Notes under the pieces: generated by a model | Seen by the model: only the letters and a program-made list of their open reading frames with translations | What the model was told of the DNA's origin: nothing | Database searches by the model: none | NCBI GenBank assembly: GCA_040905865.1 | Contig: JBBDQU010000036.1 | Location: 62,001-126,000, forward strand | Direction: 5' to 3' | From: Alphaproteobacteria bacterium | GTDB taxonomy: Bacteria > Pseudomonadota > Alphaproteobacteria > UBA8366 > GCA-2717185 | DNA length: 64,000 bases | Shown here: positions 6,841 to 9,553 of the stretch, in pieces | How the letters are laid out: each line of letters starts with the position of its first letter | Numbering within the stretch: position 1 is the stretch's first letter | Position numbers and translations under genes: made by a program

Positions 6841-6967
6841 CGATGGATCTGGCGTAACGCGGCGGTTCCGTTACCCGGCAGAAAATACGGAAAAGCTGAT
6901 CGAATCCGTGGAGCGGATCGAGCATCTTCCGGACGTCAGGGCGCTGCTCCACTTTCTCGTTGCTTAA
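6821..6967 (+). CDS. Possible 48-aa small protein after cobB
   Basis: An ATG at 6821, overlapping the end of cobB by 20 bases, opens 48 codons ending at 6967. The last 35 residues (RRFRYPAENTEKLIESVER, then IEHLPDVRALLHFLVA) look like a balanced amphipathic protein tail rather than random translation. There is no clear ribosome-binding site, and its end overlaps by four bases the end of the convergent glutaredoxin-like gene. It could equally be the remnant of a longer gene. Low confidence. Confidence 0.2.
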   Translation: MSWASTDDGSGVTRRFRYPAENTEKLIESVERIEHLPDVRALLHFLVA

Positions 6968-7200
6968 AGCCCCAGTAGTTTATCGATATTGGCCGGTTCC
7001 AGATCCGCGCCATGCAGCAACGTGTCGCCGACCTGCAGGATCGGCGATGTGCGGATATTCTTGTCATCGATGAATTCCGCCGCGTCTTCGTCCATCATCA
7101 GGTCCTTGGCCGTGAAATCCACGCCCAGATCCGTCAGATAGCGTTTCAACTGCTCACACGGCTGACACATCGGCGTGGAATAGACGATTATTTCCGCCAC
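6964..7200 (-). CDS. Glutaredoxin-like small thiol oxidoreductase
   Basis: This is a 78-residue thioredoxin-fold protein. The redox motif CQPC (Cys12, Cys15) follows VYSTPM, and the cis-proline loop TSPILQVG and the glycine/glutathione-site region LLHGADLEPANIDKLLGL complete a mini-glutaredoxin. The start is GTG at 7200, two bases after the stop of the upstream selenoprotein gene, with AGAAGGG inside that gene as ribosome-binding site, so the two are translationally linked. It is a good candidate electron donor or partner for the selenoprotein. It could alternatively be a NrdH-like redoxin; the CxxC sequence does not decide this. Confidence 0.88.
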   Translation of the reverse strand: MAEIIVYSTPMCQPCEQLKRYLTDLGVDFTAKDLMMDEDAAEFIDDKNIRTSPILQVGDTLLHGADLEPANIDKLLGL

Positions 7201-7202
7201 TT

Positions 7203-8084
7203 TCAGACTTTCCCTTCTGCCTTGAGCTGGCGGTAAAGTTCCTTCTTTGCCAGCCATTCCTTTTCCGATTCCTCGTCTTTCCAGGGCTGTTCCTGGGTGA
7301 AAATAGTTCTCTTCCAATCCTCGCCGCGCCACCAGGTGAAGGGCGCCTGTACTGTCGCGCGGGGGCCTGTCGCCTGTTCCAGCAGGTCCAGCGCCATATT
7401 CACAATGCTGCGCTGCAATTCCGGTTCATGCGGTTGTCCGCAGGGGCTGCCAAGCGGAAAGTCCGTAAACAGGAGACGCGGCACGCCGCAATGTTCGACA
7501 ATGTCCCGGGCGTTCCCAATGATGACCGTCGGAATACCATTAGCTTCGAGATGACGGGCAACCAGACTCACGGTCTGGTGGCACACGGGTCAGACGGGTG
7601 TCAGGACAACAACGTCAACCGCTTCCGCCTGCAGTTTCGCCAGAACGTCCGGCGCGTCGATTTCCCTCGTCTTGCGCTGACTATAGGCGTTGTAAACACC
7701 GTGCATCGTCCGAGCCAGGGAACCGATCCGGCCTGCCGCCTGCAATTCCTTCAACCGCGTCAGGGGAAAGAACGCATTCACGTCTTCCAGTGTGGTAGCG
7801 AAGCGGTCGAAGCTCTTGGACTGGCTATAGATATCCTCTTCCGGCGTGTCCGACGGAATCGGGTAGACATTGCCGGTTTCGCCTTTTTCAAGCGGCGTCC
7901 GCTGATCTTCCCATGTCCGCAAAGCGATTTCGCTGGTCGAAACAAGCGCCAGGCGCGACTCCGAAAGCGGCTTCTTCAGGGGCGTAAACGGCACATCCTC
8001 AAAATGCGCCCAGCGGTAAGGCTTCTCGTAGCCCTGTGCTTTATAATATTCACGCGTCTTGTCGATATAGCGGACATGAGGCAT
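7203..8084 (-). CDS. Selenoprotein of the glycine/sarcosine/betaine reductase B (GrdB-like) family
   Basis: Read through an in-frame TGA at 7592-7590, this is a 293-residue protein with selenocysteine at position 165. The flanking sequence reads VVVLTPV-U-PVCHQTV, a UxxC redox motif (Sec165, Cys168). Coding character and homology-like sequence run unbroken before the TGA (ALVSTSEIALRT, FFPLTRLKELQAAGRIGSLA) and after it (VSLVARHLEANGIPT, GVPRLLFTDFPLGSP), as in the GrdB/PrdB-like proteins of proteobacteria. A seven-base-pair stem-loop begins 10 nt after the UGA. The ATG at 8084 has AAGGAG ten bases upstream. It lies between glutathione reductase and a glutaredoxin-like gene, suggesting a thiol-linked reductase. 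The substrate is unknown; the clostridial glycine-reductase role should not be assumed. A conventional gene caller would split it at 7590. Confidence 0.85.
7561..7579 (-). promoter_or_regulatory. Candidate bacterial SECIS stem-loop
   Basis: On the minus strand ACCAGAC (7579-7573) pairs perfectly with GTCTGGT (7567-7561) around the loop CGTGA. The loop starts 17 nt after the UGA (7592-7590) and has G as its second base. This matches the published bacterial SECIS consensus of a short apical loop with an early G about 16-37 nt downstream of the Sec codon. It lies inside the coding sequence, as expected for SelB-dependent decoding in bacteria. Confidence 0.75.
7590..7592 (-). other. In-frame TGA read as selenocysteine
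   Basis: TGA codon 165 of the GrdB-like gene. The codons after it are proline, valine, cysteine, giving UxxC. No selA, selB, selC or selD gene is in this window, so decoding depends on genes elsewhere in the genome. Confidence 0.8.
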
Positions 8085-8173
8085 TTCGACACGTCTCCTT
8101 TTTCGAATATGACAATGGAAACGTGCCACAACGTACCGCGAAGTACAAATACGATACGCCTGACGACGGCGAA

Positions 8174-9553
8174 TTAATCGGCGGCCTGCCTGTCGGCGTC
8201 ATCGGGCACCTTTTCCCGCATGGTCACAAATTCTTCCGCCGCCGTGGGATGAATGCCGATCGTCGCATCGAATTGCGCCTTGGTGGCGCCGCATTTCAGC
8301 GCAATACCGACCCCCTGGGTCGTTTCGCCGGCATCCGGTCCGACCATATGAAACCCGACGACCCTGTCACTGGCGCGATCGACGACCAGTTTCATGAATG
8401 TCTTTTCCTCTGAACCTGACAGCGTGTGCTTCATGGGCCGGAACGAGGACACGTAAATATCCACGGCGCTGTATTTTTCGCGCGCCTGTGCCTCGGTCAA
8501 TCCGACGGTGCCGATATTGGGCTGGCTGAACACGGCCGTCGGAATGTCCTCGTAATCCGCCATGCGCGACTGGTTCTTGAACAGATTCCCCGCCAGCACC
8601 ATGCCTTCCGCAATGGCGACCGGCGTCAGCGCGACACGGTCGATGACATCGCCCAGAGCGTAAATCGAATCGACCGAGGTCTTGAAATAGTCATCGACCT
8701 TGACGGCTCCATTCGGCGCCAGTTCGACTCCGGCCTCCTCGAGCCCGATCCCGCGGGATTTCACCACCCGACCCGTGGCGTACATGATCAGATCCGTTTC
8801 GATTTCCGTGCCATCCTCCAGTGCCGCCAGATAGACATCCCCCTTCTTGACGATCCGGGCGATATTGGCATTGAAGCGCAGGTCGACGCCCTTCTTGCGC
8901 ATTTCATCGGCCAGAAAGCTGCGGACATCGTCGTCAAATCCGCGCAGGAAATGTGGCCCGCGATACAACTGGGTCACATTGCAACCGAGGCCGTTGAAAA
9001 TGCCTGCGAATTCTACCGCAATATAACCGCCTCCTGCGATGAGAACCCGTTCGGGAAGCGATTCCAGAAAAAATGCCTCATTCGACGTGATCGCGTGTTC
9101 CTTGCCCGGGATATCGGGCACAACCGGCCAACCGCCGGTCGCAACCAGAATATATTTTGCGGAAACCGTCTTGCCGTTGATCGAAACCGTATGCGGATCG
9201 ACAACGGTCGCGGTGCCCCTGAAAATCTCGACGCCGGCATTGCTCAACAGGCGCTCATAGATTCCGTTCAGACGCTCGATTTCCCGATTCTTGTTCTCGA
9301 TCAGTTTCGACCAGTTAAAACTGCGCGCGCCAACGGTCCAGCCGAACCCCGCGGCGTCCTCGAAATCCTCGGAAAAATGCGAGGCATAGACCAGCAGCTT
9401 TTTCGGCACGCAACCCACATTGACACAGGTGCCGCCCAGGTAGCGCTCCTCGGCAATGGCGACGCGGGCGCCGTAACTCGCCGATATCCGGCTCGCCCGA
9501 ACGCCCCCCGATCCCGCGCCTATCGTGAAAAGATCGTAGTCATACTCGGACAT
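8174..9553 (-). CDS. gor: Glutathione-disulfide reductase
   Basis: This 459-residue flavoprotein reduces oxidised glutathione with NADPH. The FAD-binding GAGSGG is at residues 12-17 and the redox-active disulfide is Cys43/Cys48 in [14 protein letters not shown]. The NAD(P) domain has [13 protein letters not shown], followed by the FAD motif YALGDV, and the C-terminal dimerisation domain ends with the active-site HPTAAEEF. It is 89 bases upstream of the selenoprotein gene on the same strand and is followed by a glutaredoxin-like gene, so the three may form a glutathione-dependent redox operon. The length is normal and no residue is missing. Confidence 0.95.

Follow-up and report, generated by a model that had tools for sequence, protein, structure and literature searches.

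The window, a 64,000-nt stretch of DNA from an alphaproteobacterial genome that was analysed as a whole, contains a predicted selenoprotein gene of the PrdB/GrdB type, with a glutaredoxin (Grx) gene directly behind it and a glutathione-disulfide reductase gene ahead of it on the same strand. The features at this locus are as follows.

6964-7200, minus strand: glutaredoxin-like protein of 78 aa with a CQPC motif and a GTG start (PF00462; conserved gene pair), proposed reductant of the selenoprotein
7203-8084, minus strand: PrdB/GrdB-like predicted selenoprotein gene, 293 aa via TGA readthrough, with Sec165 in a UPVC motif
7561-7579, minus strand: predicted SECIS stem-loop, seven pairs (ACCAGAC/GTCTGGT) with loop CGTGA; synonymous sites frozen, pairs kept and co-varying
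7590-7592, minus strand: in-frame TGA (codon 165), predicted to be read as selenocysteine; the 83 homologues have either TGA (78) or Cys (5) here
8095-8100, minus strand: Shine-Dalgarno-like AAGGAG 5' of the ATG, from the sequence
8174-9553, minus strand: glutathione-disulfide reductase gene gor (TIGR01424, 637 bits), about 90 nt upstream of the selenoprotein gene

The selenoprotein gene runs from an ATG at 8084-8082, 10 nt from the AAGGAG, to a final stop TGA at 7205-7203. Its translation across the internal TGA reads ...VVVLTPV-U-PVC-HQTVSL, giving a U165-P-V-C168 motif, and standard ORF calling cuts it into two pieces at 7590-8129 (179 aa) and 7203-7586 (127 aa). A first-pass annotation of this DNA had described an in-frame TGA at 7592-7590 within one protein, a UxxC motif at that codon, an AAGGAG before the ATG at 8084, a seven-pair stem-loop that begins 10 nt past the UGA and has CGTGA as its loop, and a gene that standard annotation would break in two. 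Each of these points was borne out by the sequence and its translation, with the frame from 8084 to 7203 continuous for 293 aa. The case shows which genes annotation splits.

The same annotation had proposed looking for sel genes elsewhere in the genome and asking whether homologues carry Sec or Cys at position 165, and both searches came out in favour of Sec decoding. The window's own genome (4.37 Mb) carries selA (563 bits) and selB (461 bits), which are adjacent, selD (300 bits), and a tRNA-Sec with a TCA anticodon. Codon 165 is TGA in 78, TGC in three and TGT in two of 83 homologues, a set made up of 80 loci from a scan of named genomes in many groups and three Cys-bearing relatives, and no other residue occurs there; the search patterns were not biased to TGA, as one of the two peptide patterns requires Cys codons at this site. 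Homologues were found in 26 of 59 related genomes, nearly all with exactly one internal TGA and a few without, and the three TGA-less copies that were aligned all have Cys at position 165. Among named relatives, the nearest belong to the Alphaproteobacteria (Rhodospirillaceae MAGs, MarineAlpha10), and searches of viral contigs and phages found no relatives. Comparison of the window gene with its closest relative (L051, 95% identical) gave a dN/dS of about 0.05 before the TGA and about 0.02 after it, both far below 1, which indicates purifying selection on both sides.

Further selenoprotein-related loci were seen in the same genome. A second PrdB-like selenoprotein gene (L133:4992-5978; G000:C5:150081-150938), 46% identical to that of the window, is flanked by ring-hydroxylating-dioxygenase-like ORFs on one side and a CoA-transferase-like gene on the other, with no adjacent Grx seen. 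A third PrdB/GrdB-like gene (L134:4107-5396; G000:C10:29220-29849) encodes a longer protein of about 400 aa that carries a UPNCTRAV motif and is extended at its C terminus; genes of this type are common in relatives, sometimes in tandem, and their sequence after the TGA differs. The selD gene (L048; G000:C48:20116-21033) occupies an open frame of 796 codons, of which the SelD model spans about 311, suggesting a fusion protein.

The case for a SECIS element is comparative, not energetic, as the energy of the hairpin is not significant alone: the z-score against dinucleotide shuffles is -1.0, and 36% of synonymous shuffles fold equally well. No Rfam family matches within the window at its gathering score. 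In TGA-bearing genes, codons 170-174 (CAG ACC GTG AGT CTG) are nearly invariant at synonymous sites, with CAG in 74 of 77, ACC (Thr171) in 77 of 77, GTG (Val172) in 75 of 77, AGT (Ser173) in 69 of 69 and CTG in 72 of 78; for comparison, conserved residues elsewhere in the gene have a mean top-codon fraction of 0.52 (four-fold) and 0.47 (six-fold). The five Cys genes drop these codon choices, mostly with the amino acids unchanged. Stem pairs are retained in 82-100% of Sec genes, and they co-vary: C-G becomes T-A at one pair (13 genes) and G-C becomes A-T at another (three genes); for the former, about 7 of 8 independent pairs on the tree are concordant and none contrary (p = 0.016). From the frozen codons and the co-variation, we infer that the element after the TGA is a SECIS.

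These data bear on the simplest alternative, that the TGA is a true stop produced by a nonsense mutation or a sequencing error, or that it separates two genes. The splitting of the gene by standard annotation and the unremarkable local fold energy would both be consistent with a stop, but this reading is extremely improbable given that 78 of 83 homologues share the TGA with Cys as the sole alternative, that the Sec machinery is complete in the genome, that synonymous sites are frozen 3' of the TGA, and that purifying selection acts downstream of it. Judged by this comparative evidence, the UGA-split gene almost certainly makes one selenium-containing protein. The first-pass view of the gene product as a genuine alphaproteobacterial selenoprotein whose substrate is unknown is thus supported by the sel machinery, the TGA/Cys pattern and the SECIS.

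The gene had also been labelled as GrdB-family, which holds at the level of the superfamily; the closest characterised relative, however, is PrdB rather than full-length GrdB. The protein scores 122.9 bits against the NCBIfam PrdB model TIGR04483, as opposed to 41-47 bits against the GrdB, GrdF and GrdH models, none of whose cut-offs (65-800) is reached, and it passes Pfam GRDB (PF07355) weakly (27.1 bits, gathering score 22). The score against TIGR04483 is nevertheless far below the curated cut-off of 300, which a control clostridial PrdB exceeds at 310.1. A PrdA search of the window's genome gave no match, while the same search in Peptoclostridium gives 556 bits, and the weaker PrdA-related matches that accompany PrdA in the control record (85 and 77 bits) are also lacking in the window's genome. 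A GrdA search gave no match in this genome, nor did it in the control genomes. By these tests, with the TIGR04483 score below its cut-off and PrdA absent, the protein resembles PrdB without being a D-proline reductase, and we rejected that identity. The genome has two copies of cytochrome oxidase subunit I, which point to respiration with oxygen.

A real selenoprotein might still serve as a D-proline or glycine-type reductase if its pyruvoyl partner were encoded elsewhere. Homology to PrdB and to the C-terminal half of the GrdB models, and the alignment of Sec165 with the Sec of PrdB, speak for such a role, but we consider it unlikely in view of the shortfall against TIGR04483, which a true PrdB does not share, a genome without PrdA or its weaker relatives, and a neighbourhood that holds gor and Grx and no Prd genes. 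An attempt to read function from the fold was dropped, since the AlphaFold model (pLDDT 85.6) gave generic matches only, Rossmann-like or periplasmic-binding-like: Foldseek had none with E below 0.001, and VIA reached Z values of at most 9.6, to LacI-type cores. Nor was a solved structure found that matches meaningfully in sequence.

The best functional clue, which the first-pass annotation overlooked, is the downstream Grx gene, whose GTG start lies 2 nt past the selenoprotein stop and whose product passes PF00462 (43.5 bits, gathering score 22.9) with a CxxC motif, CQPC. Among the 80 fetched loci, a Grx gene stands directly behind the selenoprotein gene in 33, and in a maximum-likelihood tree all 34 Grx-paired cases, the window included, fall inside one 46-member clade (SH-aLRT 99). 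A CxPC Grx is directly downstream in 34 of the 45 testable clade members, one contig ending too early to be counted, and in none of 37 genes outside the clade. According to depositor titles, the clade includes Alpha-, Beta-, Gamma- and Deltaproteobacteria, SAR324, Acidimicrobiia, Rokubacteria and a Hydrogenedentota MAG, though single cases may stem from MAG contamination. The strongest point for the pairing is the reciprocal search: with the Grx alone as query, three of 289 alphaproteobacterial genomes matched (the window's own and two others), and all three matches stand directly behind a TGA-bearing PrdB-like gene. The 11 clade members without a Grx at the site imply that it is not indispensable or that it is supplied from elsewhere. 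A six-member subclade (L067, L068, L073, L077, L085, L086) has no adjacent Grx, and several of its genomes also hold a Grx-paired copy.

Six genomes of the window's lineage (its own genome and five others) have this upstream gor gene on the same strand, and in this lineage it likely belongs to the same redox unit as the selenoprotein and Grx. In a Rokubacteria MAG (L081:5882-6112), the Grx itself has an in-frame TGA at the first active-site Cys (PL-U-RPCE) followed by a foldable stem, so that both genes of this pair may encode selenoproteins, although this is a single sequence in which an error is possible. Pro267, Trp277 and Tyr284 are invariant in Grx-paired selenoproteins, and proteins outside the clade lack them at the corresponding positions. 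Residues 260-293 (window 7206-7307) could possibly form a docking tail for Grx.

Our preferred interpretation, which we consider likely, is that this is a true PrdB/GrdB-superfamily selenoprotein that works as a free-standing selenolate reductase and is recharged by the co-encoded Grx, not by PrdA/PrdC or thioredoxin. On the comparative evidence, SelB and tRNA-Sec would decode the UGA as Sec, directed by the SECIS just 3' of it. The motif, the chemistry of the family and the gene pairing suggest the subsequent steps: Sec165 would attack an electrophilic substrate, the UxxC cysteine Cys168 would resolve the adduct to give an internal Se-S bond, and the CxPC Grx, fed by glutathione and glutathione reductase, would reduce this bond and restore the selenolate. 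This follows the scheme proposed for superfamily members, which are thought to attack a substrate carbon with the selenolate, a Cys then resolving the adduct to a Se-S bond that is reduced by dithiols (PMC10298544). The Grx route would take the place of the PrdA pyruvoyl subunit and of the PrdC or thioredoxin that serve the anaerobic enzymes, and the selenoprotein would act without any other subunit. The small adjacent Grx probably recharges the selenoprotein, gene pairing alone being no proof of electron transfer.

Leading options for the reaction are that a C-X bond is cleaved reductively, or that a peroxide- or disulfide-like substrate is reduced. The latter corresponds to a thiol/selenol antioxidant enzyme, resembling a peroxidase or disulfide reductase, which would share the Grx recycling and differ in its substrate from a C-X-cleaving metabolic reductase. 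The UxxC motif, the glutaredoxin and glutathione reductase neighbours and the terminal oxidase genes are all in keeping with an antioxidant role, which is a possibility to be taken seriously; however, Pfam shows no likeness to peroxiredoxins or GPx, the fold looks Rossmann-like and not thioredoxin-like (by weak matches), and the characterised members of the superfamily cleave C-N bonds, with the GrdB-like protein FarB proposed to cleave the C-F bond of monofluoroacetate (PMC10838667). Returning to the Grx-recharged selenolate reductase, it is conceivable, with nearly even chances, that the PrdB-like/Grx pair represents a distinct multi-phylum selenoenzyme system with no pyruvoyl subunit, drawing electrons from a dedicated Grx (itself Sec-containing in some lineages) and glutathione, and acting on a substrate outside the range of all known selenoenzymes.

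PrdB-like genes, which are abundant marine selenoproteins, have been assigned by name alone to anaerobic amino-acid fermentation, a process that the window organism appears unable to run as PrdA is missing. The Grx pairing offers a testable handle on recharging and thus a defined in vitro system for a substrate search, composed of the selenoprotein, Grx, GSH, glutathione reductase and NADPH. In the literature searched, which leaves most subscription journals outside it, we found no report of the PrdB-like/Grx pair.

A comparison with the known systems shows both shared features and clear disparities. The window protein shares with the PrdB of D-proline reductase (TIGR04483) its superfamily, its size class and a Sec aligned at UxxC, and it is 31% identical to Peptoclostridium PrdB; a 2026 review lists D-proline reductase among the selenoproteins, with a UxxC motif (PMC13188914). 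It differs in falling below the curated cut-off, in a genome without PrdA, in its Grx and gor neighbours, and in a C-terminal tail (residues ~260-293) with the diagnostic positions of the Grx clade. Relative to GrdB, protein B of glycine/sarcosine/betaine reductase (PF07355, TIGR01917/01918), residues ~14-237 weakly match the C-terminal half of the profile, whereas the N-terminal ~200 profile positions are absent and all curated NCBIfam cut-offs are missed. The downstream Grx resembles the Uxx-star, YruB and NrdH-type glutaredoxins as a small CxxC protein of the Grx family, with Sec at the first Cys in the L081 member, but it does not reach the cut-off of any named NCBIfam model. Finally, in the portions of the two reports covered here, 42 Sec-containing PrdB-like UxxC genes were described from the Sargasso Sea in 2005 (PMC1088965) and 235 from GOS in 2008 (PMC2398784), and these "proline reductase PrdB" proteins rank among the most abundant selenoprotein families in the sea; in those portions they are named by homology only, and Grx pairing is unmentioned. 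The window gene very likely belongs to this group. As Sec-containing PrdB-like UxxC proteins have already been reported, the Sec assignment adds a new member to a known family; the selenium aspect was known before, and the fresh lead is the glutaredoxin partnership in one broad clade.
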